DNA of 64,000 bases from Frigoribacterium sp. CG_9.8 (GTDB lineage Bacteria > Actinomycetota > Actinomycetes > Actinomycetales > Microbacteriaceae). The notes under the pieces are model-generated. The model did no database searches and was not told the DNA's origin. It saw nothing but the letters and a program-made list of their open reading frames with translations. Numbering within the stretch: position 1 is the first letter of the stretch; each line of letters opens with the position of its first letter. The DNA is taken from the NCBI RefSeq assembly GCF_015751965.1, contig NZ_JADOVH010000001.1:124001-188000 (forward strand), written 5' to 3'. The position numbers and the translations under genes are program-made. This document shows, one piece after another, positions 44,343 through 61,880 of the stretch.

Positions 44343-44984
44343 ATGACCATCGACAATCCGCGTGCCGGGCTGCGGGAGCGTAAGCGTCTAGCCACCGCCC
44401 GCGCGATCGAGATGGCGGCACTTACCCTGGTCGCAGAAACCGGGCTCGACCACGTGACCGTTGATGAAATCAGTCGCGTCGCCGACATCTCGCCGCGCAC
44501 GTTTTTCAACTACTACGCGTCCAAGGAGTCTGCCCTGGTGGGTGAAACACCCGAGCCGCCAACCGCCGATGCAGTTCAGGCCTATGTTTATGCCGCGAGC
44601 GGGAGTGTGTTCGATGGGCTCAGTGCGCTCCTCGCCGCAGCGGTCGAAGGGAGGTCCACCGACACGGAGCTGATGCTGAAGCGCCGCAGCCTGCTCAAGC
44701 ATTACCCCCAGCTCTTCGCGATGCGGATGGCGGCCATGCGCGAGTATGAGGAACGGCTACGCGAGATAGTCGCGCAGCGCCTCGTGGCGGATGACCCGGC
44801 CCTCGCCGACGACTCCGATGTGTTGCTCAGCCGATCCCGCCTCATTACCAACGTGGCGTTCGGAGCGATGAAGCACGCGTGGGTGTGTTGGGCAGACAAC
44901 CAAGGCGGCACGTCTCTGGCCGACCGGCTCAAGGATTCCTTCGACGAACTGGGTCGCATTCTCCGACCGGTGCCCGCAGCCTGA
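44343..44984 (+). CDS. TetR family transcriptional regulator
   Basis: A 213-residue regulator. The N-terminal helix-turn-helix is VTVDEISRVADISPRTFFNYYASKESAL (shown in part; residues 42-69). The C-terminal ligand domain is diverged, as normal. I choose the ATG at 44,343 because the upstream in-frame ATG at 44,265 would add 26 residues that do not fit the family. No operator is identified. It is the last host gene before the tRNA used by the element. Confidence 0.85.
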   Translation: MTIDNPRAGLRERKRLATARAIEMAALTLVAETGLDHVTVDEISRVADISPRTFFNYYASKESALVGETPEPPTADAVQAYVYAASGSVFDGLSALLAAAVEGRSTDTELMLKRRSLLKHYPQLFAMRMAAMREYEERLREIVAQRLVADDPALADDSDVLLSRSRLITNVAFGAMKHAWVCWADNQGGTSLADRLKDSFDELGRILRPVPAA

Positions 44985-45027: not shown

Positions 45028-45100
45028 GCCGCCTTAGCTCAGTCGGTAGAGCATCTCACTCGTAATGAGAAGGTCGTCAGTTCGATTCTGACAGGCGGCT
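45028..45100 (+). tRNA. tRNA-Thr(CGT), probable integration target
   Basis: A 73-nt cloverleaf. The acceptor pairs GCCGCCT with AGGCGGC, the discriminator is T, the anticodon loop is CTCGTAA with anticodon CGT, and the T arm has CAGTTCGATTCTG. CCA is not encoded. It separates host genes from the phage-like element, and element DNA begins directly after its 3' end, as for tRNA-integrating phages that restore the tRNA end. Confidence 0.96.
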
Positions 45101-45113
45101 CATATAAACAAAG

Positions 45114-45143
45114 GGATCGGGGCCTATCGGCTCCGGTCCTTTT
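45114..45143 (+). terminator. rho-independent terminator of tRNA-Thr
   Basis: GGATCGGGGCC pairs with GGCTCCGGTCC (two G-T pairs allowed) around a TATC loop and is followed by TTTT. It lies 14 bases past the tRNA end. Confidence 0.75.
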
Positions 45144-45150
45144 GTCTGTC

Positions 45151-45234
45151 GTGGGGAATTCGTGGGGAATTGGCTGCCAGCGATTGACTGTAATTCCCCG
45201 CATGGGGAGCTGGCGTGGGGAATCGTGGGGAAAG
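45151..45234. repeat. five GTGGGGAA-type repeats, candidate integrase arm sites
   Basis: Copies are GTGGGGAATT at 45,151 and 45,162, the inverted GTAATTCCCC at 45,190, GTGGGGAATC at 45,215 and GTGGGGAAAG at 45,225. A cluster of short direct and inverted repeats 50-130 bp from the tRNA end is what tyrosine integrases use as arm sites. The integrase itself is not in the window. The role is inference. Confidence 0.55.
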
Positions 45235-45270
45235 TTGGCAGTCATCATCCAGGCCTGCGATCATCGAGGC

Positions 45271-45525
45271 ATGCTCTTCATATTCATACTCATCATCCTG
45301 GTCCTTGGCTTCTTCGGCTTCGTCATCATGTCCCTCATCTTCATGAAAGAGCCGAGCAAGAAGTACGTGGCCCGTTTCGCTGCCAAGGAGGCGGCAGCCC
45401 TCGAGTTGAATCGAGCGCAGTATCGGGCCGCCAACCCACCCCCCACCGAGGAGCAGCTCATCGAGCAGGCTGCGATGGCTCTGCGGATCCAGCGGGCGGC
45501 TGAGCAGCGCCTAGCGGCCGAATAG
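45271..45525 (+). CDS. small membrane protein at the left end of the element
   Basis: An 84-residue protein. Residues 1-25 form one membrane helix (MLFIFILIILVLGFFGFVIM), followed by a charged, Ala/Glu-rich helical tail. It matches no family I know. The start at 45,271 is used because the longer frame would run through the tRNA. Its 3' end overlaps the convergent connector gene by 15 bases. Its place beside the attachment site would suit a superinfection or envelope-acting accessory gene, but this is speculation. Confidence 0.6.
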   Translation: MLFIFILIILVLGFFGFVIMSLIFMKEPSKKYVARFAAKEAAALELNRAQYRAANPPPTEEQLIEQAAMALRIQRAAEQRLAAE

Positions 45526-45945
45526 GTCGGATAGATCCAGGGTTGGCTCATGCGAGCGCAGGCGCGTGTTCACGATCGCGTAGAGGGCCTCGTCGCGCGC
45601 GGCGCGTGCATCTTCTGCGTCAGCCTGCTTCGCGTAGCTCTCTGCGACCTGCAGGAGGTCGCGGCCCTTGCCCAGCGTGTTGATCGTGAAGCCATCGGCA
45701 CCGATCGACTGGCCAGCGATCGTGAGAGACAGTGCAAGCTGCTTGATGAGCACTGAGCAGGCGCGGGTGACGTTGCCGTTGGCCAGTTGGAGTGAGATGG
45801 AGATGGCCACATCGGCGAAGTATTTGTAGTCACCTTGACCGACAACGATCGGGCTCAGCGGAACCGAGCTGTCGTCCCCGAGGAGGAGACGAACTTGAGC
45901 GATTGGGGATGTCGCTTCGAGGGGGGTCACGCCAGGATTCGCCAT
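45511..45945 (-). CDS. head-tail connector-like protein
   Basis: A 144-residue protein beginning with a short N-terminal arm and PIAQVRLLLGDDSS, a pattern seen in phage head-closure and connector proteins. The rest is helical (residues 40-130) with a C-terminal acidic tail. Its position directly after the capsid gene supports the assignment. It has its own late-type promoter and is the last leftward gene before the tRNA. No tail gene follows. Confidence 0.6.
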   Translation of the reverse strand: MANPGVTPLEATSPIAQVRLLLGDDSSVPLSPIVVGQGDYKYFADVAISISLQLANGNVTRACSVLIKQLALSLTIAGQSIGADGFTINTLGKGRDLLQVAESYAKQADAEDARAARDEALYAIVNTRLRSHEPTLDLSDLFGR

Positions 45946-45951
45946 GGCATC

Positions 45952-45984
45952 AGTCTAAGGGCCTTCCCAGCAAACGCCCAGAAA
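45952..45984 (-). promoter_or_regulatory. late-type promoter of the connector gene
   Basis: On the reverse strand TTTCTG (45,984-45,979), 21 bases, TAGACT (45,957-45,952), then six bases to the ATG. The spacer holds GGCGTTTGCTGGGA, shared with the other late promoters. The distance predicts a leaderless mRNA. Confidence 0.65.
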
Positions 45985-45991
45985 TAAGTCA

Positions 45992-46022
45992 GGCTCCCGG
46001 CGGTGTTGTCACGCCGGGAGCC
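45992..46022 (-). terminator. hairpin upstream of the connector gene
   Basis: GGCTCCCGGCG pairs perfectly with CGCCGGGAGCC around a nine-base loop. Leftward, it is followed by TGACTTATTT, so it may end transcripts coming from the capsid gene just before the next promoter. Confidence 0.65.
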
Positions 46023-46081
46023 CGCTGTACGAGGAAGGAGGGGCCTGCGTACCCTCCCAGGATACTCACAGAATCTTAGAT

Positions 46082-46091
46082 TAGCCAGCTA
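46082..46091 (+). promoter_or_regulatory. TAGCCAGCTA site, capsid-connector gap
   Basis: Exact TAGCCAGCTA, flanked as TTAGCCAGCTAA. It lies between the two hairpins that separate the capsid and connector transcription units. One of nine similar sites in the element; candidate operator. Confidence 0.5.
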
Positions 46092-46100
46092 ACGCGAGAA

Positions 46101-46125
46101 GGCCCCGGCAAATAGCGCCGGGGCC
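46101..46125 (-). terminator. terminator after the major capsid gene
   Basis: GGCCCCGGC pairs with GCCGGGGCC around a seven-base loop, starting 20 bases past the capsid stop. No long T-run follows, so efficiency is uncertain. Confidence 0.65.
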
Positions 46126-46144
46126 TCTCATTGTGCGTTGCTGG

Positions 46145-47341
46145 CTACAGCGGGCGGGTGATCGCTCCGCCAGTTCCGTTCGAGTGAACGATGTGCAGCT
46201 CGGCCCAGAGGACCGCGCCGTCGATGTTCCGCAGGCGGTACGCCAGCGAGTCGGACTCGAACGAGCCCTCGAAGGGGCTGATCGAGCCGGCGCCGACGTA
46301 GGAGCCCTGGAGGTTCTGCACGCGCAGCTCCGGGGTCTCGTATCCGCGCAGCTTGAGGAACTCGATGACCGGGCGACGGGTGGAGCCCGGCTTCGGAACG
46401 AGCGACCAGGTGTTGTCCAGAATGCGCTCGGACTCAACGAGGGTCACGTTTCCGAGGACCGTGTTGTAACGGCCACCATCTTCGACGTAGCCACCGCTGG
46501 TGACGTGCAGCACCTGGCGGTTCATCTGGAAGTCCCAGAAGCGACGAGTCCCGATCGGCACGAACAGGTTGTAGCCTGACGCCTCGCCGATGCGGTTGCC
46601 CTTGATCTTGCGACGCGAGCGCTGGAAGATCGCTTCCTCGATGGCCTCGGGCGACAGCTTCGCGTTGGCCGGGATGGTGGTCCCGTCCGGCGAGGTTCCG
46701 GCGCTGAGTGCGCTAACGGCGGTAGCCGACAGGAGAGCGTCGAAGAACTCGGCGATCTTTCCATCGGTCGACACGCTGAGCAGCTCGCCCGGCAGGGCCT
46801 CGAAGAAACCAACGGTGTCGTTGATCTGCGCTTCCCAGGTCCAGTCGAACCGGAGACCGCGCTTGCGGAGCTTCTGGTAGAAGCTCTCGATCCCGCCGGT
46901 CATGGAGACCATCGGGAAGAGTCCGCCCTCGGGGATGACCAGCGGCTCGCCGTGCTTGCCGAGGCCAGCACCGCGCATGTTCGACTCGTTGTACTCGAGG
47001 TCGGGATCGGTGGCGTCGCCTTCGCCCCAGTAGAGCGAGTACAGCGCGACGGGACGGAAGTCCTTGACCGTGCGAACGCCCGCCCAGTCTCCGAGGGAGT
47101 GGACCGCCTTGTCGTACTGCGGCACGAACTCGATGTTGATGGCGTGCGTGAGGTTCACGCTCGCGTCGGTCGAGCTAACGGCCTCGCGGAGCGTTCCGTC
47201 GGCAACGTAGTCGCCGGCCATCGCGCTGCGGAAGAGCTTCTGCGCTTCCTTGACCTTGCTCTTCGACACGCCGGGCTGCGGGTGCAGACGACGGTCAAGG
47301 GTGAACTGGTCGCGGTACTCCCGCGCCTTGAACTCGGCCAT
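46145..47341 (-). CDS. phage major capsid protein
   Basis: A 398-residue protein in the position of the major head protein. The N-terminal about 60 residues are helical and charged (MAEFKAREYRDQFTLDRR), followed by an alpha/beta region rich in aromatic residues (ALYSLYWGEGDATDPDLEYN). The size, order after decoration protein and protease, and the C-terminal strand pattern fit a HK97-fold capsid protein of actinophages. Its ATG overlaps the stop of the decoration gene, so expression is coupled. I cannot name the closest phage. Confidence 0.82.
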   Translation of the reverse strand: MAEFKAREYRDQFTLDRRLHPQPGVSKSKVKEAQKLFRSAMAGDYVADGTLREAVSSTDASVNLTHAINIEFVPQYDKAVHSLGDWAGVRTVKDFRPVALYSLYWGEGDATDPDLEYNESNMRGAGLGKHGEPLVIPEGGLFPMVSMTGGIESFYQKLRKRGLRFDWTWEAQINDTVGFFEALPGELLSVSTDGKIAEFFDALLSATAVSALSAGTSPDGTTIPANAKLSPEAIEEAIFQRSRRKIKGNRIGEASGYNLFVPIGTRRFWDFQMNRQVLHVTSGGYVEDGGRYNTVLGNVTLVESERILDNTWSLVPKPGSTRRPVIEFLKLRGYETPELRVQNLQGSYVGAGSISPFEGSFESDSLAYRLRNIDGAVLWAELHIVHSNGTGGAITRPL

Positions 47342-47757
47342 TATGCGGTCACTCCGATCTTGATGGGGCGAACGGTCCCGCGAACGAGGTATCCGCTCGG
47401 CTCGTTGACGACACCGAAGTAGGTGTTGCCGGTAGCGGTGATGCTGAGAGTGCCATCGGCCGCGACGAAGTACACCGGTACTCCGGGGACGGTTCCGGCG
47501 ACAGCACCAGTGATGGGGAACTCGAAGGTTCCGGTCGTGTAGACCGAAGACTCGAGTGCGCCCTGGCCGTTGTCACCCTGCGGGAGGCCCGAGATGGTGA
47601 TGCCGGCGACAGTGATCGAAGTCTTCTGTCCGGGCGTTCCGCTCAGGGTCACGCCGGGGCGAGTTCCCTGCATGACGGCGACGCGAGGAAGCGTCGGGAC
47701 GGCGAGCGTCCATACCTCACGGGTGGATTCGATGTCTGCGAAGACTTGTGCGCCCAT
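47341..47757 (-). CDS. capsid decoration (DUF2190-like) protein
   Basis: A 138-residue protein, nearly all beta strand and Gly/Thr/Val rich (ITVAGITISGLPQGDNGQG, FEFPITGAVAGTVPGVPVYF). The last stretch is the typical DUF2190 pattern of small head-decoration proteins that stabilise HK97-type shells. ATG at 47,757 overlaps the protease stop (TAATG), so I prefer it to the in-frame ATG at 47,766. Confidence 0.7.
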   Translation of the reverse strand: MGAQVFADIESTREVWTLAVPTLPRVAVMQGTRPGVTLSGTPGQKTSITVAGITISGLPQGDNGQGALESSVYTTGTFEFPITGAVAGTVPGVPVYFVAADGTLSITATGNTYFGVVNEPSGYLVRGTVRPIKIGVTA

Positions 47758-48677
47758 TAGTTCCACTCCATTCCGAGTGCGTAGCTTTCGTTGTCCGAAC
47801 CGGACTCAACGCGGCGTCCGCCGGTGTTGGTCGACTCGGTGAGAGACGTGATGGCTTCTGCCTTGATCTTCTTGGCGTCTTCGAGCGCAGCGGTGATGTC
47901 ATCGCCCTTCGCAGCGGCGGCCAGGAGGGCCGTTTCCTGCGTGGGGAAGACATCGGCCTTGCTGACCAGATCGGAGGCTGCCGCGTATGCCGCGATCGCT
48001 TCCGTGATGGTCGGCTCTGCCTCAGTGCCGGCGGCCTTGGCGGCCTCGGCAGCTTCGGCAGCTAGCTTCTGCTCAGAGACGAACGCGAGGACCGGGGCGA
48101 GAGCTTCGGCTACTGACTTGTCGACCAGTGCCTTCATTTCCTCGGGGGTCATGCTTTCCTCTTTTCTTTCGTCTGCCAAGGCGGCAGTACGGGCTGATTC
48201 GAGGAGCGACATTGCTCTCTCGGAAACTTTGTCGCCGAGGCTGGAGCCTTCAAGGCCGCCGTAGCCCACCATGTCGACGCCATTGGTGCGGTGGGCGATC
48301 AGCTCGGTGATGTTGCCCTCCTTGTCGGCCTTGCCGAGCGCGAAGATCGACAGGGCAACGTGCGGGGCAACCTCTTCAACGAAGTCGGCGTAGCGGGGGA
48401 GCGGCAGAAGCTCGGAGACGAGGGCACCATTCGGGCCTTCGTTCGGGTCCCAGCTAGCCCCGTCAGGGTAGGTGCCAAGGAGGTCCCGCGGGTCGCGGTT
48501 CTCGTCATGGTTAATGTAGGCCTTCATGCCGGCCGGGAAGGCGACGGGGCCGTAGTTCTCGAGGACCTGGGCGCTGTACTTGCCGCTGGAGCCCTGGCCG
48601 GGGACGGCGAGGATTGCGCGCCAACGGCCGGTCGCCGTCTTGGTTGCGGGCTGCGCTGCTTCGATAAGTACCTTCAC
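47757..48677 (-). CDS. capsid maturation protease with C-terminal scaffold
   Basis: A 306-residue protein with two parts. The first about 150 residues form a protease-like domain: GKYSAQVLENYG, then AYINHDE (likely catalytic His) and HVALSIFALG (likely catalytic Ser). From about residue 165 the sequence is a Glu/Ala/Lys-rich helix (EEMKALVDKSVAEALAPVL), as in fused scaffolding domains. It would cut itself and the capsid N-terminus during head maturation. GTG start sits seven bases after TAGGAT. Confidence 0.78.
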   Translation of the reverse strand: MKVLIEAAQPATKTATGRWRAILAVPGQGSSGKYSAQVLENYGPVAFPAGMKAYINHDENRDPRDLLGTYPDGASWDPNEGPNGALVSELLPLPRYADFVEEVAPHVALSIFALGKADKEGNITELIAHRTNGVDMVGYGGLEGSSLGDKVSERAMSLLESARTAALADERKEESMTPEEMKALVDKSVAEALAPVLAFVSEQKLAAEAAEAAKAAGTEAEPTITEAIAAYAAASDLVSKADVFPTQETALLAAAAKGDDITAALEDAKKIKAEAITSLTESTNTGGRRVESGSDNESYALGMEWN

Positions 48678-48684
48678 GCAGCCA

Positions 48685-48717
48685 ATCCTATGCGAACTCC
48701 CAGGAAACGTCCAGAAA
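48685..48717 (-). promoter_or_regulatory. late-type promoter of the protease-capsid unit
   Basis: TTTCTG (48,717-48,712), 21 bases, TAGGAT (48,690-48,685), then seven bases to the GTG start. The spacer holds GACGTTTCCTGGGAGTT, close to the other late promoters. A leaderless transcript is predicted. Confidence 0.68.
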
Positions 48718-48722
48718 GCAAA

Positions 48723-48732
48723 AAGCCAGCTA
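48723..48732 (+). promoter_or_regulatory. AAGCCAGCTA site at the portal gene end
   Basis: One mismatch to TAGCCAGCTA. It contains the TAG stop codon of the portal gene and lies five bases upstream of the next late promoter box. Confidence 0.42.
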
Positions 48733-50292
48733 TTTTGAGATGCCCTTCTTACGGACGTCGTTTCCGTTTACGCCACTTCCGCCTGCCGGATTGTTCTTGC
48801 CCTGGTCGGGAGCTGCAGTGGATTTGTTGAGGCCCTGGTCGGCTGGGGCTCCTGGAGCACCGGGCATGACGGTCGGGGGCGGAGGCGCATTGGCTGCCTT
48901 GATCTTCGACTGCGCCTTGAGGGAGGTGAGAGTGTTCGGCTGGATCCAGTCGATGGGCACTGCGTTGCCCGTGATTTCCAGCAGCTCTGAGATGCGCTCC
49001 TCGATGGGGCCGGGCAGGTAGAGGCCGCTGTCGAGCGCGAGGATCAGCGCCTGCAGCTCGCGGTATTCTTCGCTGGCGTCCGAGAGAGAAGAGAAGAAGA
49101 CGTCATTGGCATCAAGCTCGGCGCCCATCCAGGTCAGGACGCGGCGGTCGAACTCAACGTGGCGGCTGCGGCGGCTCTCCATGGCGAGTCGGGTGGGGAG
49201 GTCGAGGGTGGCGGCTGAGCCGTATCCGCCAGAGCCGGATGCGCCGGGGTTCGAGGAGATGGAGACGACGGATACCTCGAGTGCCGAGGCGACGATCGCC
49301 AGGAGGGCGTGTCCCGAGTCGAAGTCGTAGCCCTTGCCGGCAGTGGGCAGCGGGGTGAGCGCGTTGGCGCCGATCAAGGTTGCGCCAGCGTCGGATGGCG
49401 TGGCGATCCGGGCGGCGGCGTTGTCGGTTTCCTTCTTGGAGCCGGTAGCGATCTGGAAGGCGAACTGCGCCATCGCGTCCGACATGACCTTGCCGTTCAT
49501 CACGAAGTCGCGGTAAATCTTGGCCCAGGCGTATGCGGTCAGGCCATCGGGAGCACCGAAGGCCCAGCCGACCTGCGTGTTGACGTGCTGGTCGAAGATA
49601 ACCTTTTTCGTCGGGGCGATTTCATCATGCTCGACCTTGATTTTGAATCCTGGCTTGTTGCGGCGCTTGTCGGCCAGGTCGGTATAGATCCACTCCTTGA
49701 CGGATTCGCCCTCTCGCTTCCTCGAGTAGTCGGTGTAGTCGATCCGGTAGGCGATGATTTCGTCTGCTCGCAGCGGGTTGAATGCGATCGAGCCAACCTG
49801 CTCGATGAAGGTGGGCTCGAGGGAGTGGTCGGACGGGTCGCCGATGACGAGGTATATCGAGTCGGTGAACAGCGCGCTCTCACGCTCGTCGTGGGCCTGC
49901 GGTCCGAAGAAGTTGCGCTGGTTCAACAGGTCGGCGACGTATTTCTTGGTCTGCTTCGTATAGCCACTACCGCTCGGCAGCGCGTTGTCGCTGTAGTGGA
50001 TATTGCCACTCCAGATGTTGTTAGTTCGCAGCCGCATGCCTCGCTGCATGTGGACGTTGCCGAGGGACTCGCGGAGCTTCCGCGACCACTCCTTGAGTTC
50101 GTCGAGCGAGGGGCCAGTGTGCAGGTCTCCCATTCCGCCGATGACCTTGGCCCAGCCGATGTCTTCCCCAGCGAGCATCGCGTTCCAGGAGAGCTGCTCG
50201 CGCAAGCTCTGGTTGATCGTCTGCGACTGGTCGAGGACTGTTTCGAGGAGTCCGACACGTTCTTCGGAGAGTTTCAAGGTGTTTTCGGCCAT
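48730..50292 (-). CDS. phage portal protein
   Basis: A 520-residue protein between terminase and protease genes, the normal place and size for a portal. It has a helical N-terminus (LETVLDQSQTINQSLREQLS), a long alpha/beta middle (about residues 60-400) and a disordered, Pro/Ala/Gly-rich C-terminus (PPPPTVMPGAPGAPADQGL). Twelve copies would form the DNA gate of the head vertex. The ATG lies seven bases after TAAAGT with no Shine-Dalgarno. Confidence 0.82.
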   Translation of the reverse strand: MAENTLKLSEERVGLLETVLDQSQTINQSLREQLSWNAMLAGEDIGWAKVIGGMGDLHTGPSLDELKEWSRKLRESLGNVHMQRGMRLRTNNIWSGNIHYSDNALPSGSGYTKQTKKYVADLLNQRNFFGPQAHDERESALFTDSIYLVIGDPSDHSLEPTFIEQVGSIAFNPLRADEIIAYRIDYTDYSRKREGESVKEWIYTDLADKRRNKPGFKIKVEHDEIAPTKKVIFDQHVNTQVGWAFGAPDGLTAYAWAKIYRDFVMNGKVMSDAMAQFAFQIATGSKKETDNAAARIATPSDAGATLIGANALTPLPTAGKGYDFDSGHALLAIVASALEVSVVSISSNPGASGSGGYGSAATLDLPTRLAMESRRSRHVEFDRRVLTWMGAELDANDVFFSSLSDASEEYRELQALILALDSGLYLPGPIEERISELLEITGNAVPIDWIQPNTLTSLKAQSKIKAANAPPPPTVMPGAPGAPADQGLNKSTAAPDQGKNNPAGGSGVNGNDVRKKGISK

Positions 50293-50299
50293 GCAGCTT

Positions 50300-50332
50300 A
50301 CTTTAGGCTAGTTTTCAGCCCATTCACAGAAA
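50300..50332 (-). promoter_or_regulatory. late-type promoter of the portal gene
   Basis: TTTCTG (50,332-50,327), 21 bases, TAAAGT (50,305-50,300), then seven bases to the ATG. The spacer is more diverged than in the other three but keeps GCTG at the same place. Confidence 0.6.
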
Positions 50333-50334
50333 CT

Positions 50335-50344
50335 TGGCCAGCTA
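50335..50344 (+). promoter_or_regulatory. TGGCCAGCTA site at the terminase gene end
   Basis: One mismatch to TAGCCAGCTA. It includes the TAG stop codon of the large terminase gene and lies two bases from the portal promoter box. Confidence 0.42.
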
Positions 50345-52156
50345 CAACGGGCTGCCCACGCTGTTTCTCTTCTGGTTCAACAGTTCCCAGGGGTCACGGA
50401 AGTACGTGTCTCCCCTTTTTGCCTGGTTGATCGGGTCGTCGATGCCGGGAAGGAGCGCTGCGGCATAGCTGCAAGTGTCCGCCGCGTCAGGAGACTTGAA
50501 CCCGCGCTTCTTCATCGACTCCTTCGACTCAATCAGGATGGCGCCGTGGGGTAGGGACTCCTCGTAGATGATGTCGCCGAGCTGCTCGATCAGCAGGGCA
50601 TCGTTCGGGTCGATGTCGATGGTGCCGTGTTCCATGCGCTCGCGCAGCTTGTCGTACTGGTGGGCGCGGTCGTTCTTCCAGACCATGACGTCAGGGCTTG
50701 AGCGGGATCCGAGCATCTCCACGATGATGTAGGGCCGCACGGCACCTTTCAAGTCGATCGAGAAGAGCGCGTCGACGAGGCCCTTACCAACACCGGATGC
50801 GTCAATGCGGACCTGGGTGACGCGCTGCTCGAGCGCGTGCTGATGGACAAGGGTTGCTTGCCCGACGGTCTTGACGATGTTGCCGTTGCCGTCGTTCTCC
50901 ACGCGGTCGGAGAACGGCCGGCCGCGGAATGACTCGATGAACCGGATCCGCATGCCGTCGACGACCCCGACATCCCCCAGCTCACTTGTGACGTGGCCGT
51001 CTTCGTGGGTGACCTCGACCCACTCGTACATGAGCCCGGACTCGGAGGTGTAGCAGAACGTGGAGTCGCCGGTCTCGGCGCGCGCGACGTCGACGGCGAG
51101 CACCCGACGGGAATCGTCTGCCACGAAGCATGTCGCGTCGCGTCCCTTGCCGAGGGCGAACTCGGTGAAGAGGTTGTTGCCCGAGTCGTAGGCGAACATC
51201 CCGAGGACACGCGAGCGGTAGCGCGGGGAGTCTTCGCCGTACTCCAGGCGTTTCTCCTCGACGTAGGTGGGGCCGGATAGCGCGCGGAGGGCGTCGGCCG
51301 ACATTCCGAGCCCAAAGGGCAGCTTGTCGTGCTCGGCTTTCCGCTCACACCCTTCGACGCAGCGCCCGCCGCCGTGGAAGTTGGGGGAGTCCAGTACGGA
51401 AATAGCGTGCAAATCCCAGCTCGCGCCGTACTCTTCGCCAGTCTTGTCGTTGATCTTGCCGGAGAAGATCGCGCCGAGCCGGGAGGCTGGGTTCGTCGGG
51501 TTGGCGATGAGGAGTCGGCGTGAGGTGTCGTTGGAGGTGATGTTGGAGAGCGAATCGATCATGGCCTCGTTGAGGCCGACCGCCTCGTCCCCGATCGCCA
51601 GGACGTACTGCGCGTGGATTCCCTGGAAGGCGTCTTCCTTGTGGTCCGGGGGCTTGCGGCCCTGGGCGACGAGCACGCCAAGCGAGGTCTTCCACTCGTC
51701 GTTACCGGTGATGTAGCCGGGCAGTGCATGGTCGGGCCAGCCCGTCGTGTCCTTGCCGTCCTTCTGCAGCCGTAGGTACTCCTTGTTGCGCTCGATGCTC
51801 TTGGCCATGAGCCCGCGGATTTCCCGCCAGAGAATCGCCTTGACCTGGGCGGCGGAGGGTGCGGTTGTGGCGACGAAGGAGCTGCCGAGGGGATGAATGT
51901 CAATCCACCATGCAACTAGCACTGCCGAGAGGAAGGACTTGCCGACACCATGGCCGGCGCGGACGGCGATCGACTTCTTAGTGCCGCGGGCGATCGCGTA
52001 AGCAATCTCGCACTGCTTCCACCAGAGGTCGACACCGAGAATGTCCTTGGCCCAGAGCACCGGATCGGTGAGGTACTGGGCCTTGCGGGCGTCTGTCTCG
52101 AGGCCGTCGACAACTCGGGGGAGCAAAGAGGCGAGGTAGCCAGTGTTGGCGCTCAT
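50342..52156 (-). CDS. terminase large subunit
   Basis: A 604-residue packaging motor. The ATPase has Walker A AVRAGHGVGKSFL (GHGVGKS at 68-74), and Walker B LAIGDEAVG (about 190). The C-terminal nuclease shows VLAVDVARAETGDSTF and VRIDASGVGKGLVDAL, the RNase H-like acidic residues. It translocates DNA into the head and cuts it. ATG overlaps the stop of the small subunit gene (ATGA), so the two are coupled. The protein looks complete. Confidence 0.92.
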   Translation of the reverse strand: MSANTGYLASLLPRVVDGLETDARKAQYLTDPVLWAKDILGVDLWWKQCEIAYAIARGTKKSIAVRAGHGVGKSFLSAVLVAWWIDIHPLGSSFVATTAPSAAQVKAILWREIRGLMAKSIERNKEYLRLQKDGKDTTGWPDHALPGYITGNDEWKTSLGVLVAQGRKPPDHKEDAFQGIHAQYVLAIGDEAVGLNEAMIDSLSNITSNDTSRRLLIANPTNPASRLGAIFSGKINDKTGEEYGASWDLHAISVLDSPNFHGGGRCVEGCERKAEHDKLPFGLGMSADALRALSGPTYVEEKRLEYGEDSPRYRSRVLGMFAYDSGNNLFTEFALGKGRDATCFVADDSRRVLAVDVARAETGDSTFCYTSESGLMYEWVEVTHEDGHVTSELGDVGVVDGMRIRFIESFRGRPFSDRVENDGNGNIVKTVGQATLVHQHALEQRVTQVRIDASGVGKGLVDALFSIDLKGAVRPYIIVEMLGSRSSPDVMVWKNDRAHQYDKLRERMEHGTIDIDPNDALLIEQLGDIIYEESLPHGAILIESKESMKKRGFKSPDAADTCSYAAALLPGIDDPINQAKRGDTYFRDPWELLNQKRNSVGSPL

Positions 52157-52686
52157 CCCTGCTCGATTCGCCGTTCGATGGTGTCGACTGCGGCGGGCAG
52201 CGCCATGAGGAATACCTCGTGAAGCTCGGCACTGGGGACGGCGGGGTAGCGCCGGGCCAGCTCATCGGCTGCGGAGAACATGGTGGCCTGGATTGCGGCG
52301 AGCATGATGCGTGCCTGGCCGTCGAGGACGATGTTCGCAGCTTCCTCGGGGCTCATGCGGTGCTTGGCGAGGGCGTCCTGCTTCATCTTGAGCGCCTGGA
52401 GCGCGGCCTTGATGTGCTGCACGCTACCGGCAGCGACCCACTCACGCAGCGAGGCAAGGATGTCGTTGATCGACTCCAGAATGAGCTGCTCCTGCTCGAA
52501 GAACGTCGCCCAATTGCGGGACTCAAGCAGGTCTCGCACGCGCTGTATCGTCTGCTCCGGGGGGATCGTGCCGCCAACGGCCGCTGACATCTCCTTGCCG
52601 CTGAGACCGTCTGAGGCGGCGCGCAGGAGCTTGCGGTCTATAGGCCCGTTGGCCAGCCCACGGCTATATTCCAGCTCTTTGCTCAC
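52153..52686 (-). CDS. probable terminase small subunit
   Basis: A 177-residue helical protein directly before the large terminase, overlapping it by four bases. The N-terminal part (RKLLRAASDGLSGKEMSAAVG) could form a DNA-binding helix-turn-helix, and a long coiled region follows (residues 60-150). No strong family motif is seen; the call rests mainly on position and size. GTG start is six bases after TAGAAT. Confidence 0.7.
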   Translation of the reverse strand: MSKELEYSRGLANGPIDRKLLRAASDGLSGKEMSAAVGGTIPPEQTIQRVRDLLESRNWATFFEQEQLILESINDILASLREWVAAGSVQHIKAALQALKMKQDALAKHRMSPEEAANIVLDGQARIMLAAIQATMFSAADELARRYPAVPSAELHEVFLMALPAAVDTIERRIEQG

Positions 52687-52692
52687 CGCGCC

Positions 52693-52725
52693 ATTCTAAG
52701 GCAACTCCCAGCGAACGCCCAGAAA
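52693..52725 (-). promoter_or_regulatory. late-type promoter of the terminase unit
   Basis: TTTCTG (52,725-52,720), 21 bases, TAGAAT (52,698-52,693), then six bases to the GTG start. The spacer holds GGCGTTCGCTGGGAGTT. It directly abuts the terminator of the upstream gene. Confidence 0.68.
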
Positions 52726-52753
52726 CCCCCGACAGGGCCAAGTCTGTCGGGGG
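52726..52753 (-). terminator. terminator after the DGQHR gene
   Basis: CCCCCGACAG pairs perfectly with CTGTCGGGGG around an eight-base loop, starting eight bases past the stop. Leftward it is followed by TTTCTG, which also forms the first box of the terminase promoter. Confidence 0.85.
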
Positions 52754-52760
52754 CTGGTCT

Positions 52761-54131
52761 CTACTTCGCCGCCTTGGCGCGTGTCAGCTCGGGGCGGAGG
52801 ATCGCATCTGTCTGCTCATCAGTCAGTTCTTCGGGTTCGGGCTCGGGAGCTGGCTTCGGGCGAGCCTTCGGCTTGGCGTCGAGGAACTTCGGCCCATCAA
52901 TTGCCCAGCTCACGAAGTGGTCAACGACCTGTACGGCGTCCTGCCGGCGCGAGGAGGGAGCAGACATGCCGGGCACGAAGCTCGGCATCCCAACCCGCTC
53001 CAGGAGCAGGCTATTCTCGTGGATCGGCACCTCCAGGTGCGGGGCAAGCTTGGCGAAGAAGTCCTCCACCATCTGCGCTGAAAAGGCGTGCTCTACTGTC
53101 AGGTTGTGATAAGTCGCAGCTAGGATCCGCCAGAAGACTGGCGAGCCGAGCAGCGAGGTCTCGCGGAGCTGGTCCGGGGTGATCTGCCCGTTCAGGATCG
53201 CAGCTAGTGGCGGGAAGGAGCGCACGAGCAGGTCGAAGAACTCCTCAGAGTTCACCTCGACGTCGCGGTCGCTCATCTGCGACTCGACCCGCTTACCGAT
53301 CCGGCCCTCATAACCCACACTGAGCGCGCGCACGGTCTCGATAACGTGCTTGGCGGTGGTGACGTAGGGCGACTTCTTCGGCAGCCGGTCGGTTTCTTTC
53401 TCTGTGCGGTTGGTGAGAAGCGGGTGGTTGAGTACGTTCTCGAGGGCGCGGTTGACGGCCTTGCGTGAGTCGAAGCGCGCACGGACGGAGGCGGTAATAC
53501 CCTTCGCGTTCTCGGCAATGTCGTAGAACGCCTGGCGGTACTTTGCCGGGTCGCCCTCGACCATCACTTGCACGGGAATGTGTTCGCTGGTGAATCGCTT
53601 GGCCTGCAGTTCAAGCCCGGCCTTCTTCTTCTCGAAGTCGCGGAGTGCGTTGGTGTCCTGGTTTCGGCGTGCCGAAATGATCGACTCGCTGGTCTTGGCG
53701 ATGTCCGCGTTGATCCCGTCCAGCGCCTCGTACATGCCAAGAATGCGGTGCTGGCCGTCCAGGATATGTAAGTCACTGGTGGCAGTGCGCTGGTAGCTGA
53801 TGCTGCCGAATGCAATGCCAGCGTCCTCGGCGGTCGCGGATACGAACTCGAAGGGGCGCTCTCCGCGGAGGATGATGCCTGGCACGACCCACTCGGGTGC
53901 GCTACGCAAGTAGGCAGCAAAATCGGAGGCGTGCTTGGGTGTGATGCGCCGGTTTCCGACGGTCAGTACTGCGGGGTTCGGCCGCGGGACGAGCGCAAGG
54001 ATCTGCAGCAGGGAGAGGTCGAGGAGATAGTTGGTCCGGCCGCCCTGGATGAAGCGGGTCCCGTAATAGACATCAGTCGTGCTGTACCCGGTAGCGGCAG
54101 GCAGCGCGGATAAGTCAAGAGTCATGATCAT
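52761..54131 (-). CDS. DGQHR-domain (DndB-like) protein
   Basis: A 456-residue protein with the diagnostic HILDGQHRI at residues 122-130, the core of the DndB/DGQHR family. The family also expects RRITPKHASDFAAYL, a segment seen here at 61-75. DndB acts as a regulator in DNA phosphorothioation systems, and DGQHR proteins also occur alone in phages and defence islands. No dndACDE or pbe genes are in the window. The C-terminus is Pro/Glu/Lys rich. The ATG at 54,131 lies seven bases after TATAGA; a second ATG at 54,125 has GGA upstream and is an alternative. Confidence 0.78.
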   Translation of the reverse strand: MIMTLDLSALPAATGYSTTDVYYGTRFIQGGRTNYLLDLSLLQILALVPRPNPAVLTVGNRRITPKHASDFAAYLRSAPEWVVPGIILRGERPFEFVSATAEDAGIAFGSISYQRTATSDLHILDGQHRILGMYEALDGINADIAKTSESIISARRNQDTNALRDFEKKKAGLELQAKRFTSEHIPVQVMVEGDPAKYRQAFYDIAENAKGITASVRARFDSRKAVNRALENVLNHPLLTNRTEKETDRLPKKSPYVTTAKHVIETVRALSVGYEGRIGKRVESQMSDRDVEVNSEEFFDLLVRSFPPLAAILNGQITPDQLRETSLLGSPVFWRILAATYHNLTVEHAFSAQMVEDFFAKLAPHLEVPIHENSLLLERVGMPSFVPGMSAPSSRRQDAVQVVDHFVSWAIDGPKFLDAKPKARPKPAPEPEPEELTDEQTDAILRPELTRAKAAK

Positions 54132-54171: not shown

Positions 54172-54205
54172 TGCGCCGTAAATCACAGTGTTACCATCCT
54201 GTTAC

Positions 54206-54215
54206 TAGCTGGCTA
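54206..54215 (-). promoter_or_regulatory. TAGCCAGCTA site upstream of the DGQHR gene
   Basis: Exact match on the reverse strand (reads TAGCTGGCTA on the plus strand), 75-84 bases before the DGQHR start, in the gap toward the divergent gene. Confidence 0.5.
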
Positions 54216-54335
54216 AGTTTGTCAAGCCCTCACGTATATGGACAGGGGCAAGTCTGTGTAGAGTCTCAGGAAGAGCGCGGCCACATTCACCGGGCTTGGT
54301 ATTGAAAGCTAAAACTAAAGAGGACGTCAACAGCC

Positions 54336-54621: not shown

Positions 54622-54636
54622 CTTCGCCTGGAACGT

Positions 54637-54646
54637 TAGCCAGCTA
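54637..54646 (+). promoter_or_regulatory. TAGCCAGCTA site at the end of the leftward operon
   Basis: Exact match. It contains the TAG stop codon of the dNMP kinase gene and lies 15 bases before the terminator. Confidence 0.5.
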
Positions 54647-55291
54647 TCGGCTGAGTGCCACCTGTGGACCGCTCTGGCCGAAGCGCTGATCGACGTAGGC
54701 GTACAGGTCCTCGAGCGTGCCGGTGTTCGGGATGGTGACCTGGAAGTCGTCGCTGCTGACACCGCTTTCGCTTGAGTGGCTGTCGGTGTTGGTGGCAATG
54801 CTAGGGCGGTCGACCCAGGCGGTGATCGGGGAAGCGCCGACGATGCGATCGAACATCGTGACCTCGTTCTGGAAGCGGACGCCCGTGAGGACAACGCTGT
54901 GGCCCTCAGCGACGGCTGCGTTCATGCGGCGTACCGCAATGTCGGTCCAGACGTCTTTGCCGAGGAGGTCGCGGCCGACCTCGGTGCCAAAGCGCTGCAG
55001 GAGCCCGCGGACTTCCGGCTCCTTCTTCGCCTCGACGTACCCGACCCGGCCCACCAGGTCTGCGTAGCGAATCTCCTGTGTCTCCCTGATGCGAGAGAAG
55101 CCGAGGCGGGTGCTCATCTCCTCCTGCATCCGCACTCCGATGCCGATGAGGGGGTTGAGGGTCATCATCGCCGCGTGGAGTGGGTCGGACATGCCGAACT
55201 TGACGAAGCCGTACTTGTTGACGAGGCGGTCGGCCACTTCGTCCTTGCCTGAGCGCAGGCGCCCGCCGAGGCCGATTACTTGGGGGGTCAT
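54644..55291 (-). CDS. deoxynucleoside monophosphate kinase
   Basis: A 215-residue P-loop kinase. IGLGGRLRSGKDEVADRL (residues 6-23) is the nucleotide-binding loop, followed by KYGFVKFGMSDPLH as in phage dNMP kinases of the T4 gp1 and actinophage type. It would raise dNTP pools for element replication. ATG overlaps the stop of the nucleotidase gene by four bases. It is the last gene of the 15-gene leftward operon. Confidence 0.8.
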   Translation of the reverse strand: MTPQVIGLGGRLRSGKDEVADRLVNKYGFVKFGMSDPLHAAMMTLNPLIGIGVRMQEEMSTRLGFSRIRETQEIRYADLVGRVGYVEAKKEPEVRGLLQRFGTEVGRDLLGKDVWTDIAVRRMNAAVAEGHSVVLTGVRFQNEVTMFDRIVGASPITAWVDRPSIATNTDSHSSESGVSSDDFQVTIPNTGTLEDLYAYVDQRFGQSGPQVALSR

Positions 55292-55842
55292 TTGAGCGCC
55301 TCCATGACGGCTTCGCGCCAGTTGAACCAGCCACGGAGCCGCACGAGGCCCTCGGTGTGGCGGTTGTGGGGTTGGGATACGAGGATCTGCGTCCAGGTCG
55401 GGGTAGCGATGCCAGTGATTTCGCCCTTGTCGTCGAAGAGCACGTCGCCACGGATCATCGTCTTATCGGAGGTGATGATAGTGCGCCTGGACCACTCGGT
55501 GCCGAGGTGGTCTTCGACCCAGCGCAGTTTGTCGGACGCGCAGGTCGGGTTGGAGACCCAGGGGCTTGTGACCAGGAAGACCTCGTGCCCGTCCATGACC
55601 ATCTCCTGTAGCGCGCGGATGGCGCCCGTGATGGGCTGCAGCTCGGCGTAGAAGGAGTGCTCAGCCATGATCGCGTGGATGATCTTCTTCTCAGCCGGCG
55701 TGCGTCCGGTCGTGAGGTCGAAGCTCTCATGCTGGTGGGAGCGCGGGATATTCTCGGCTCCCTGAGTGCGGTTGAGGGCCGAGTCGTAGCGGCTGGACCA
55801 GTCGGCGATCGTGTCGTCGAGGTCTACGAGAATTCGGGTCAT
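55288..55842 (-). CDS. 5'(3')-deoxyribonucleotidase-like HAD phosphatase
   Basis: A 184-residue HAD protein. RILVDLDDTIADW has the catalytic DxDxT (D7, D9, T11), VFLVTSPW the second motif, and GDVLFDDKGE the third. This matches the NT5C family of deoxyribonucleotidases carried by phages. It may trim dUMP or dTMP pools together with the dNMP kinase. ATG overlaps the upstream stop. Confidence 0.82.
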   Translation of the reverse strand: MTRILVDLDDTIADWSSRYDSALNRTQGAENIPRSHQHESFDLTTGRTPAEKKIIHAIMAEHSFYAELQPITGAIRALQEMVMDGHEVFLVTSPWVSNPTCASDKLRWVEDHLGTEWSRRTIITSDKTMIRGDVLFDDKGEITGIATPTWTQILVSQPHNRHTEGLVRLRGWFNWREAVMEALK

Positions 55843-56165
55843 GCGCTGTATCTGATCTTCTTGGGTGGGTAGTCGCCGAAGCGGACTTTGGCCGCAACCT
55901 TCTGCTTGCGGAGGTAGGCGCGGCGCTCCATCAGGTGGTGCGCTGCAGCGATTACTTCTGCCTCGCTGGGAACCCAATAGAGGTTGCACGGGTCTGTTGT
56001 TTGGATAATGCCGTAGCTGTCGCTGATCCATCTCGAGCCGCACCAGGTCTTGGTGCGGAGCTGGATCATCGGCTGCTCCCCGAGGTGGTGGTAGACCCGG
56101 AAGAACTGGCCCTCGGGCAGTTCCGGCATGGCGGCAGGCTCGGGCGCCGGGCGACTGTTCTTCAT
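55839..56165 (-). CDS. hypothetical phage protein, 108 residues
   Basis: MKNSRPAPEPAAMPELPEGQ starts a soluble protein with one cysteine pair (WCGSRW and DPCNLYW) and a basic C-terminus (YLRKQKVAAKVRFGDYPPKK). No family is recognised. It overlaps both neighbours by four bases and so is part of the coupled operon. An in-frame ATG at residue 13 is an alternative start. Confidence 0.65.
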   Translation of the reverse strand: MKNSRPAPEPAAMPELPEGQFFRVYHHLGEQPMIQLRTKTWCGSRWISDSYGIIQTTDPCNLYWVPSEAEVIAAAHHLMERRAYLRKQKVAAKVRFGDYPPKKIRYSA

Positions 56166-56365
56166 CCGGTGATCCTTCGGTAGGAGGTGAAGTTGTCGGC
56201 CAGCTCGTAGCGCTTCCGGCCGGTCTGGCCGGACTCGAGCGTGTAGAGGGCACCGTTGGCGCTGGCGTTCTCGTGGATGGCGGTGATCTTCCAGGTCAGG
56301 GCGCCGGGGCTCTCGACCAACGTCACGTAGTCACCGACCTGTGGGGTGTCCTGGTCGGAAGTCAT
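56162..56365 (-). CDS. hypothetical phage protein, 67 residues
   Basis: MTSDQDTPQVGDYVTLVESP, then TWKITAIHENASANGALYTL. The V-G-D-Y-V and K-I-T-A-I pattern suggests a small SH3-like beta-barrel as in many phage and transcription-associated mini-proteins. Function unknown. ATG overlaps the upstream stop (ATGA). Confidence 0.62.
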   Translation of the reverse strand: MTSDQDTPQVGDYVTLVESPGALTWKITAIHENASANGALYTLESGQTGRKRYELADNFTSYRRITG

Positions 56366-56544
56366 TCGGTCACCTCGGTGCAGCCCATGTCCTTCATCAT
56401 CTGATCGAAGAATTCCTCCGTCATCATGAGGCATCCCCGCTCGTTGATGTGGGGGACGTACTGGCGTCCATCGGGGGCGATGTAGGTGCGCTCGCGCGGG
56501 GTGCGGAGCGTCTCACCTTCGCGGTACTTCTCATCGGGGGTCAT
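56362..56544 (-). CDS. hypothetical phage protein, 60 residues
   Basis: Starts MTPDEKYREGETLRTPRERT, then APDGRQYVPHINERGCLMMT. Charged and soluble, with a Met-rich C-terminal helix (EEFFDQMMKDMGC). Not recognised. ATG overlaps the upstream stop by four bases. Confidence 0.6.
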   Translation of the reverse strand: MTPDEKYREGETLRTPRERTYIAPDGRQYVPHINERGCLMMTEEFFDQMMKDMGCTEVTE

Positions 56545-56708
56545 GCTGCGGCCTGTTCGTGGTTGTCGATCGGGCGGAGGGTGATGACACCGCTGGTGGG
56601 GTCACTGTAGACGAGGTAGATGCCGGGGGCGGGTGGCAGGTACTTGGTCAGCGAGACGCGCCCGCGGGTGTCGGGGAGGACGGAGCCGAGGGGCTTGTTG
56701 GCGCTCAC
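56541..56708 (-). CDS. hypothetical phage protein, 55 residues
   Basis: GTG start overlapping the upstream stop (GTGA). The peptide reads VSANKPLGSVLPDTRGRVSL, then KYLPPAPGIYLVYSDPTSG. The G-S-V-L-P-D-T-R-G-R-V-S-L-T-K stretch resembles the strand-turn-strand of AbrB/MazE-type DNA-binding proteins, but the match is weak. Function unknown. Confidence 0.55.
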   Translation of the reverse strand: MSANKPLGSVLPDTRGRVSLTKYLPPAPGIYLVYSDPTSGVITLRPIDNHEQAAA

Positions 56709-57127
56709 GAGATGGTCTGCCCGAAGTAGCGATCCCCGACGATGATCTGCGGGTTGGGGTTGTGGGCGCCGGTGTAGCCGCCGTAGTGGAGTCGGCCGGA
56801 GTGGGTGCGGCCAAGGTGGGCCTCGAGGCCAGCGAGCGTATTGGGCTCGCAGATCTTCGTGCGGAGCGTCTGGATGACGCGCGGGTCGGTGATCTTGACC
56901 TGGGCTTCGGTCGAGTAGCGACCCTGGACGACCTTCGGTTCGAGGAGCAGCTCGATTGGGATGTAGCCGGCGGCGATTGCCTTGGTCTCGAAGTTGTGGT
57001 GCTCCTTGCTGGCAGCGATGGCGCGCTGGCCGGCTTCGATGATCTGCTTTTCGAGGAAGGCGATTTGGCTGCGCAGCTCGGCCTTGTTCATGGCCTTGGT
57101 GTCGGTGAGGATGGGCGAGTCGGTCAT
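56705..57127 (-). CDS. hypothetical phage protein, 140 residues
   Basis: After a start at 57,127 (overlapping the exonuclease stop) comes a helical coiled-coil-like part (NKAELRSQIAFLEKQIIEAG, about residues 14-33), then a mixed alpha/beta part ending HNPNPQIIVGDRYFGQ. No family recognised. Its place between exonuclease and small proteins gives no clear role. Confidence 0.6.
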   Translation of the reverse strand: MTDSPILTDTKAMNKAELRSQIAFLEKQIIEAGQRAIAASKEHHNFETKAIAAGYIPIELLLEPKVVQGRYSTEAQVKITDPRVIQTLRTKICEPNTLAGLEAHLGRTHSGRLHYGGYTGAHNPNPQIIVGDRYFGQTIS

Positions 57128-57891
57128 GCTGTTACTCCTTCTGGGGCGGGTGTTGGGGTGGTGTCGTGTGTGGGCCATGAGGTCTCCAGGACCGCGGTCG
57201 GGTCAGTGCCTTTGCGGAGCCACTTCTGCAGGTCGGCCTGCTGAGTGGCGTACCAGCCGCGCTGGCTGTTGTGGAGCTGCGCGACGGACTGCGTGGGGGT
57301 TGTGGCGACCTGGGGGGCGTAGCGGGCGAGGACTGCCTGGATGATCCGGCCGGAGGCGATGGCGTCGAAGGAGGCGTCGTGAGCCTGTTCCTCGGTGAGC
57401 AGAATGCCGTACCGGGCGGCGGTAGGGGTGAGCTTGCGCTGGCCTTTGCCTTTGAGGAAGCGGTTGAAGTGCTTGTCGAGGACCAGGGAGTCGAGGACCT
57501 TGATTCCGTTCTCGCCGAAGGGGAGCGGTGCGACTGACTGGCGGCGGAGGTGGGCGTTCAGCATCGAGAGGTCGAAGCTGATGTTGTGGCCGCCGAGTGG
57601 GAGCGGATTGGGGTTCTGCGGGCCGCAGAGTGCATGTATGAGGCTGGCGATTTCGAGGGTCACCGCGTCGAGGTCCTGGCGGATGCCGGGGGTTTCGGCG
57701 AGGCGTTCGGTGGTCCAGCCGTGGACGTCGGAGGCGCCTGTGGGGATGTCGATGCCGGGGTTGACGATCCATTCCTGCTCGCGGGCGACGGTGCCGTCGG
57801 CGGTGAGGAAGCCGAAGTAGGCGGTGACGATGAGGTCGTTGGCGGTGGAGACTCCCGAAGTTTCCAAATCGAATACGGCCATGTCGATCAT
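57124..57891 (-). CDS. DEDDh 3'-5' exonuclease (DnaQ-like)
   Basis: A 255-residue exonuclease. The metal-binding residues are D8 and E10 in VFDLETSG, D107 in GHNISFDLSML, and H171 with D176 in EEQAHDASFDAIASG, completing the DEDDh set. It could proofread, process RNA primers or degrade DNA for the element. It overlaps both neighbours by four bases. Confidence 0.88.
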   Translation of the reverse strand: MIDMAVFDLETSGVSTANDLIVTAYFGFLTADGTVAREQEWIVNPGIDIPTGASDVHGWTTERLAETPGIRQDLDAVTLEIASLIHALCGPQNPNPLPLGGHNISFDLSMLNAHLRRQSVAPLPFGENGIKVLDSLVLDKHFNRFLKGKGQRKLTPTAARYGILLTEEQAHDASFDAIASGRIIQAVLARYAPQVATTPTQSVAQLHNSQRGWYATQQADLQKWLRKGTDPTAVLETSWPTHDTTPTPAPEGVTA

Positions 57892-58157
57892 TCGGACACC
57901 ACCCAGTCGGCCAGTTCGCGGACCCAGGCGTCTACCTCAGCGGCGTATTCGGGCGCCTGCTCGCGCACCTTGAGGACGAGCTTGCGCTGGGCTTCGGCCA
58001 GGCCGGAGATAATGCTGAGGGTATTGGTGTCGTGGTCAACGGTGCCGCCCTGGTTGGGGATCGGGGTGCCGCGCGTCTCCAGCTCGAAGTCGGCGAGGTT
58101 GTTCATCACTCCTTCACGGATCTGGAGGAGGATTCTGGCTGGCAGTTTGTCGGTCAT
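57888..58157 (-). CDS. hypothetical phage protein, 89 residues
   Basis: Starts MTDKLPARILLQIREGVMNN; helical, with ISGLAEAQRKLVLKVREQ and a C-terminal acidic helix ending WVRELADWVVSE. No family is recognised. It overlaps the small membrane protein stop and the exonuclease start. Confidence 0.6.
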   Translation of the reverse strand: MTDKLPARILLQIREGVMNNLADFELETRGTPIPNQGGTVDHDTNTLSIISGLAEAQRKLVLKVREQAPEYAAEVDAWVRELADWVVSE

Positions 58158-58303
58158 TTTGTGGGCTCCGCGAGGATGAGGATGTACAGGACAATGACGG
58201 CGACGGCCGCCACGGGGGCGAGGGCAGTGCTGGCGGCCCGAATGATGCGGGCTGCGCGCTCGCGCTTGCGCCAGGCGCGGATGTCGAGCTGCTTGGCCTT
58301 CAC
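58154..58303 (-). CDS. small membrane protein, 49 residues
   Basis: GTG start overlapping the upstream stop by two to four bases. A basic N-terminal half (WRKRERAARIIRAAS) is followed by one membrane helix (VAAVAVIVLYILILAE, about residues 31-46). It may be a holin-like or regulatory peptide; too short to tell. Confidence 0.58.
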   Translation of the reverse strand: MKAKQLDIRAWRKRERAARIIRAASTALAPVAAVAVIVLYILILAEPTK

Positions 58304-59240: not shown

Positions 59241-59356
59241 GACTGGTATCCGATCTTGGTGGGTTTGTCGCAGATAGGGCATCCGAAGATGTCGGGCCTG
59301 GTGGTGAAGGGGCACATTTGCTGGCCGCATCTGCAGGCTGGGGGCGGAAGGAGCAT
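59237..59356 (-). CDS. zinc-ribbon-like mini-protein, 39 residues
   Basis: MLLPPPACRCGQQMCPFTT, then GCPICDKPTKIGYQS. Five cysteines (C-x-C, C, C-x-x-C) suggest one zinc site. Start and stop overlap both neighbours (TGATG and ATGA). Function is unknown; it could be an accessory for the RNA ligase, but that is a guess from position. Confidence 0.6.
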   Translation of the reverse strand: MLLPPPACRCGQQMCPFTTRPDIFGCPICDKPTKIGYQS

Positions 59357-59807: not shown

Positions 59808-59824
59808 GTGGACTCCTGTGCATT

Positions 59825-61853: not shown

Positions 61854-61880
61854 ATCTGAAATAAGGCCAAGGAGCCGACT

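Follow-up and report, generated by a model that had tools for sequence, protein, structure and literature searches.

The window analysed here is a 64,000-nucleotide stretch of Frigoribacterium sp. CG_9.8, positions 124001–188000 of contig C1 in a 2.85-Mb assembly (window coordinate + 124000 = contig coordinate). Its right part, beginning at a tRNA-Thr(CGT) gene, belongs to an element extending from C1:169057 to ~235804, with two attachment-site (att) cores ~66.7 kb apart and 48 kb of the element beyond the window end. Head and packaging genes adjoin the left att copy (attL), and tail and lysis genes the right copy (attR). Judged from its sequence, the element is very probably an apparently complete temperate siphophage prophage, in which the phage att site (attP), the integrase gene and a putative excisionase (xis) gene form a cassette between the head and tail genes. 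Temperate siphophages of actinobacteria are well known. The features at the two ends were as follows (window coordinates unless marked C1).

45028–45101, +: tRNA-Thr(CGT), the attachment gene, complete at attL (ARAGORN; Rfam tRNA, 73.4 bits)
45057–45148, +: attL, sharing with attR 45 identical bases of the tRNA 3′ part and then a similar, hairpin-containing stretch
45150–45232, +: four direct repeats of CGTGGGGAA (at 45150, 45161, 45214 and 45224), candidate integrase arm sites
45511–45945, −: gene for an adaptor-like 144-aa protein, closing the head half (match to a PHROG of unknown function, 8e-5)
46145–47341, −: major capsid protein (phrog_133, 1.7e-15; Pfam Phage_capsid_4, 1.2e-14)
47341–47766, −: decoration/cement protein (weak matches, 3.9e-5 and 3.7e-5)
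47757–48677, −: head maturation protease (4.4e-19)
48730–50292, −: portal protein (2.5e-66)
50342–52156, −: terminase large subunit (1.1e-19)
52153–52686, −: possible terminase small subunit, 177 aa (position and a weak relative)
C1:234287–234478, −: xis candidate, a 63-aa HTH_17-like protein, divergent from the integrase
C1:234525–235667, +: tyrosine integrase, adjoining attR (PF00589, 3.3e-23)
C1:235760–235852: attR, the second att copy, found by searching the genome itself with the att region as query

The head and packaging module announced by the original prediction, which had been made from the letters of the window, was real: portal, protease, capsid and large terminase were assigned by family and the decoration protein by weak matches. 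Both terminase subunits had been named. The large one stood; the 177-aa ORF proposed as the small one had no match in protein family searches; what speaks for the assignment is its position, together with a weak relative in phage CMP1 whose gene directly precedes the one in terminase position. The predicted connector gene was also present, and its role as an adaptor is suggested by a relative in phage Cassita lying directly upstream of a gene annotated as head-to-tail stopper. This last gene of the module ends 410 bp from the tRNA-Thr gene, which was confirmed by both programs. The arm-type repeats held as well: besides the four copies of CGTGGGGAA beside attL, scanning of 100 kb found a fifth beside the integrase (C1:235625) and a sixth inside the protease gene (window 47940). 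Copies beside both attL and the integrase are the pattern expected of arm sites.

The module had been described as lacking tail genes, but the window ends inside the element. A search to the right of the window, up to the second copy of the tRNA-Thr 3′ end, found integrase, tail tube, tape measure and endolysin. The integrase keeps the motifs GLRWGE, HDLRH and LGH...Y, which we take to be the catalytic motifs of tyrosine integrases. After xis, on the minus strand, came genes for a DUF6093 protein, two connector-position proteins (PHROGs of unknown function) and two tail tube proteins, and then for a chaperone-position protein (no family), a 1879-aa tape measure, tail proteins and an endolysin. 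The element thus carried what is looked for in a temperate siphophage prophage, namely an integrase with a duplicated att core at both ends, and head, tail and lysis genes (the last by the endolysin). The two att copies, the arm repeats on both sides, the catalytic motifs and the head, tail and endolysin genes without visible breaks all support this assignment.

In the predicted circle, the order on the minus strand is terminase, portal, protease, decoration, capsid, adaptor and attP, followed by the integrase (on the opposite strand), xis, DUF6093, connectors, tail tube, tape measure and endolysin. The stop of the adaptor gene and the start of the DUF6093 gene would be ~2.0 kb apart. Integration opens the circle inside the late cluster, which would bring the head genes next to attL and the tail and lysis genes next to attR. 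The alternative that the original prediction had named last, an unusual attP separating head from tail genes, was supported, and it recurs in related phages.

The left flank and the tRNA were matched in 13 of 13 genomes of the genus. Two genomes of the genus, G076 (C1:488860 and 491449) and G191 (C3:456992), had extra copies of the tRNA-Thr 3′ end at 12–18 kb from the tRNA locus, hinting that this tRNA may be an integration hotspot for other elements.

Recurrence of the split layout in related phages

Relatives were found through protein alignments. In a viral contig collection, alignments with portal, integrase and capsid gave 25, 5 and 7 loci, respectively; single-protein scans of that collection with the same three proteins gave no relative. 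In the genome collection, the portal alignment gave two relatives, Leifsonia aquatica H1aii and a Microbacterium metagenome-assembled genome (MAG; G780). Portal matches among 398 genomes of the same family numbered three, the own one and two weak partial matches (E = 4.7e-4 and 9.0e-4). The portal profile, own match included, gave 1/398 in the family (own), 1/13 in the genus (own) and 5/394 in the class. The four other class genomes (G594, G644, G481 and G577) were compared by tblastn alone; in G481, capsid and tail tube matches were close together and an integrase-like match lay ~24 kb upstream of the portal. Plasmids, searched with the capsid, gave no match.

All seven non-redundant records with a recombinase, a capsid and a tail tube had the recombinase at the head/tail junction. 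These were our prophage, the Leifsonia prophage, G779, G792 (counted together with G793, in which the integrase–capsid spacing equals that of G792), G794, G796 and G778. The junction was seen directly in two of them, was supported by att repeats in two and was read from contig ends in three. The recombinases at this place differed, with several tyrosine types and one serine type. Judged from these records, the split layout is not a quirk of one genome.

The Leifsonia prophage (NZ_AYMR01000009.1, about 260.96–335.6 kb) had the same split layout on one contig, with head genes at 261.5–268.7 kb, the tape measure at 323.5–329.1 kb and a tyrosine integrase at 334.4–335.6 kb. Its head and tail modules corresponded to ours gene by gene, with similarly long tape measures and identities of 76% (capsid), 66% (portal), 79% (large terminase), 66% (tail tube) and 54% (tape measure). 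It differed in its integrase, which is unrelated to ours, and in its att site: the two copies of a 17-bp repeat (260962 and 335594) marked the 3′ end of an ABC ATPase gene and a place next to the integrase, whereas ours is at tRNA-Thr. A reading frame to the right of this repeat resembled a membrane protein when read by eye, perhaps the permease that partners the ATPase, so the prophage may separate two partner genes.

G779 (IMG/VR 3300042934_000727; 70,184 bp, with nearly the same 178 bases at either end; nearly duplicated by G780 in the Microbacterium MAG) and G792 (IMG/VR 3300017651_000001; 67,936 bp, 123-bp end repeat) shared with our prophage an opposite-strand integrase between the adaptor and DUF6093 genes. 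Unlike ours, they are apparently circular genomes with the order unbroken: capsid, adaptor, integrase (opposite strand), DUF6093, connectors and tail. The G779 integrase was 45% identical to ours; a sub-threshold resolvase match (44564–44782) was also seen in the G779 junction. The HTH_17-type gene sat between integrase and tail genes in our prophage, Leifsonia and G779, scoring 26.5, 38.5 and 20.7 bits against a curated cut-off of 27, which only the Leifsonia protein exceeded.

In G794, G796 and G778, head genes were at one contig end, tail genes at the opposite end and the recombinase at one of them, that of G778 being a 482-aa serine recombinase. G795 comprised a tail half with an adjoining integrase and had no capsid match. 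Neither recombinase family was found in 12 further records (G781–G791 and G797), several of which are fragments.

Named phages with both modules kept them together. CMP1 of Clavibacter, Cassita of Microbacterium, Pan2 of Pseudanabaena, Jojan60 of Stenotrophomonas and Commonplace of Curtobacterium each had relatives of both modules in a single run, and no integrase was present among the features covered (part of each record). In CMP1 and Cassita the order of the modules was the same as ours, but head and tail were contiguous and other cargo lay near the junction. Other genes at or near the junction were seen in four of the five (not Jojan60), encoding fibre or minor tail proteins, hydrolases, and GIY-YIG or HNH endonucleases; the insertion point shifted by a gene or two, from the capsid/adaptor gap in Cassita to a position after the DUF6093-like gene in CMP1. 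The head/tail order was shared with the CMP1-like phages (Cimpunavirus), but similarity fell below genus level, with portal identities of about 32% to CMP1 and 28% to Cassita and tape measure identity of 36–38% over part of its length. Searches with the portal, tape measure and capsid gave no named phage at 60% or above. The nearest named integrase was that of Microcystis phage MinS1 (43% identical), which also had distant relatives of the capsid, portal and tape measure; in MinS1, unlike ours, the integrase lies outside the structural genes.

A palindrome dispersed over the prophage

A palindrome, TTAGCNNGCTAA, was reached from words enriched between called genes. With at most one mismatch it occurred at 17 sites in the prophage (<1 expected), 15 of them intergenic; the 73 kb of host DNA scanned on its flanks had none. 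When two mismatches were allowed, only a slight excess remained (19 against about 11–12 expected). Among half-site permutations (n = 60) it ranked first, with 17, 16 and 9 sites in our prophage, Leifsonia and G779; the runner-up had 5, 4 and 4, and the medians were 1, 0 and 0. In an unrestricted count of palindromes, TCGA-rich coding words ranked above it, leaving it third in our prophage, and it was outside the six words listed for Leifsonia and for G779.

Related genomes had different numbers of sites: 16 in Leifsonia, 11 in G796, 9 in G779, 6 in G795, 2 in G792, 1 in G778 and none in G794. G792 instead had 15 sites of a variant core, TTAGTNNACTAA. CMP1, Cassita, Pan2, Jojan60 and Commonplace (40–50 kb each) had 2, 1, 2, 0 and 0 sites; MinS1 had none, nor had G791 (32.5 kb). 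Other repeated intergenic words were seen in G794 (GCGGAGTCTAAG; L166–L169) and G778 (CTTAATTCTGG; L118, L177, L178 and L119), and these are perhaps dispersed sites of their own. Sites recurred at matching junctions: after the capsid gene in our prophage and G779, between connector and xis in our prophage and Leifsonia, and at the xis–integrase and tail tube–chaperone junctions in all three.

Many short sites in the phage with none in the flanking host DNA is the distribution of the stoperator or inverted-repeat (CIR) type. The inverted repeats of phiC31 are short and scattered through the phage genome, for the most part in intergenic positions. Mycobacteriophage stoperators are likewise described, in the available part of PMC9283540, as short, dispersed and mostly intergenic; ours differ in being a palindrome. 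From this distribution, the TTAGCNNGCTAA sites look like phage-wide operators for the phage's own regulator, with specificities differing among members.

A repressor candidate was an 82-aa XRE-type helix-turn-helix protein (C1:191067–191315, +; L003:7068–7316; HTH_31, 2.4e-9) whose gene is preceded, at distances of 31 and 171 bp, by operator-like sites. It had no BLAST relative in Leifsonia, G779 or the examined part of G778, and the lack of relatives in the first two speaks against its being the repressor. A lone plus-strand gene for an 81-aa protein between two operator-like sites had no Pfam family match.

The operator-like sites and the remaining genes of the window were:

46081–46092, −: exact TTAGCNNGCTAA site in the capsid/adaptor gap
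52761–54131, −: DndB-like protein (Pfam DndB, 4.3e-31), between terminase and nucleotide genes
54205–54216, −: operator-like site, one mismatch
54636–54647, −: operator-like site, one mismatch
54644–59807, −: remainder of the leftward cluster, with dNMP kinase, 5′ nucleotidase, exonuclease-like and RNA-ligase genes
59824–59835, −: operator-like site, one mismatch
61844–61855, +: operator-like site, one mismatch
61881–64000, +: start of the rightward cluster, which continues beyond the window
C1:190885–234884: 12 further operator-like sites

Between the divergent clusters, ~1.2 kb of A+T-richer DNA (60.2–61.4 kb) was without a convincing gene and had several operator-like sites within or flanking it; it is possibly a control region or origin. 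No convincing regulator ORF was found in the central region, 59.8–61.9 kb of the window. The middle of the prophage carried helicase, exonuclease, Sak4-like and primase genes. DndB-like relatives occurred in the same neighbourhood in Leifsonia (72%), G779 (43%) and G778 (42%). A 90-aa protein (59535–59807, −) matched the Acb2/Tad1 hairpin domain just over the cut-off (1.5e-6) and may act in counter-defence against cyclic-nucleotide signalling.

Alternative explanations and a possible role of the junction

Capsid-forming phage-inducible islands encode capsid and packaging functions of their own next to an attachment site, lack tail genes and use the tails of a helper. The original prediction preferred such an island, and the window by itself does resemble one, its head and packaging genes leading up to a tRNA and arm repeats. 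The same element, however, is ~66.7 kb long and has at its far end, next to integrase and attR, the genes for a tail tube, the 1879-aa tape measure, further tail proteins and an endolysin. A tail and lysis set at that end was what the prediction itself had said would count against an island, and we rejected this explanation, which now has hardly any probability. Loss of the tail genes by deletion, another of its suggestions, was rejected too, given the gene-by-gene correspondence of the head and tail modules to those of Leifsonia and the similar lengths of the two tape measures. The wide separation of the two halves on the chromosome would also suit a pair of adjacent elements, the left one a remnant that carries head genes, the right one the tail end of a different prophage. 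This is very improbable: a single att pair brackets both halves, relatives of both share one genome in many phages, and both are close to the same Leifsonia prophage (by capsid, portal, tail tube and tape measure). From these comparisons, the head and tail modules belong together. Against a complete prophage of this layout several points must be set. In a search for the empty site, the right flank was not found in the 14 loci of genus relatives that were read (~1.5 kb past the tRNA). No certain small terminase gene, no holin and no certain repressor gene was identified in the prophage. A tRNA-Arg near the same end of the Leifsonia prophage makes its att site less certain. The outer 400 bases of G794, G796 and G778 gave no end repeat, the longest matches being 8, 9 and 11 nt, and their junctions rest on contig ends; these alone prove little, because G786, with no recombinase found, likewise has the capsid at one contig end and the tape measure toward the other.

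What the layout does is a separate matter, as is the nature of the palindromes. The tail half may have its own promoter at the xis–integrase gap, and the split would then be a tolerated insertion spot without effect on late expression. This explanation has the balance slightly in its favour. The cargo at or near the junction in four of the five named relatives (in the stretch covered) points to an insertion-tolerant place, and the 47-bp gap before xis shows by eye a TACACT box followed by an operator-like site, but a promoter scan, of sigma-70 type only, gave no consensus promoter there. Rather unlikely, the dispersed palindromes would be start-associated or transcription-related elements and not repressor operators. 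Start-associated sequences are known in cluster K mycobacteriophages, according to the available part of PMC3203893. With site orientation assigned by us from the downstream or containing gene, the half on the downstream-gene side was exact GCTAA in 14 of 17 sites and the opposite half exact TTAGC in 4 of 17, a bias that suits such elements, and several sites lie close before start codons. On the other hand, the integrase-less phages (in the stretch covered) and MinS1 have 0–2 sites, and the dispersed words differ in other members that bear a recombinase, as they would among immunity groups.

With the element taken as a complete prophage and the palindromes as operators, a course of events can be outlined. 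Integration into tRNA-Thr(CGT) would open the phage circle between the adaptor-like gene and the DUF6093 gene. Both halves may be silenced by a phage repressor acting on the TTAGCNNGCTAA sites that follow the capsid gene, surround xis or lie in the central region. Integrase and the small helix-turn-helix protein, going by their families, would excise the phage and rejoin the late cluster. More speculatively, a head-to-tail transcript might exist only after excision, attP being inside the late cluster. Taken together, integration would be a virion-building switch, an unexcised prophage being unable to express its head and tail genes as a single unit; fast-diversifying repressor sites (TTAG-NNNN-CTAA in most members) would silence the halves, and the junction would be a docking slot at which tyrosine and serine integrase cassettes have replaced one another. 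We hold this combined proposal doubtful, and rate a promoter of the tail half's own at the xis–integrase gap higher than gating by excision.

A literature search of partial coverage, with subscription papers mostly outside it, gave no paper describing attP between head and tail genes; the layout is not described in the available parts of PMC4936722 and PMC6471424. For most temperate siphoviruses among the mycobacteriophages, a mid-genome location of the integration genes is stated (PMC7194413, available part).

The layout explains the tail-less-satellite look of the window and is a warning against calling capsid-forming islands from one prophage end. It would define a temperate phage group, at least partly actinobacterial (Leifsonia and the Microbacterium MAG), in which unlike lysogeny cassettes share a slot in the late cluster. 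The dispersed palindrome and its variants among relatives mark candidate immunity groups, and the arrangement raises the testable question of whether excision itself assembles the late operon.

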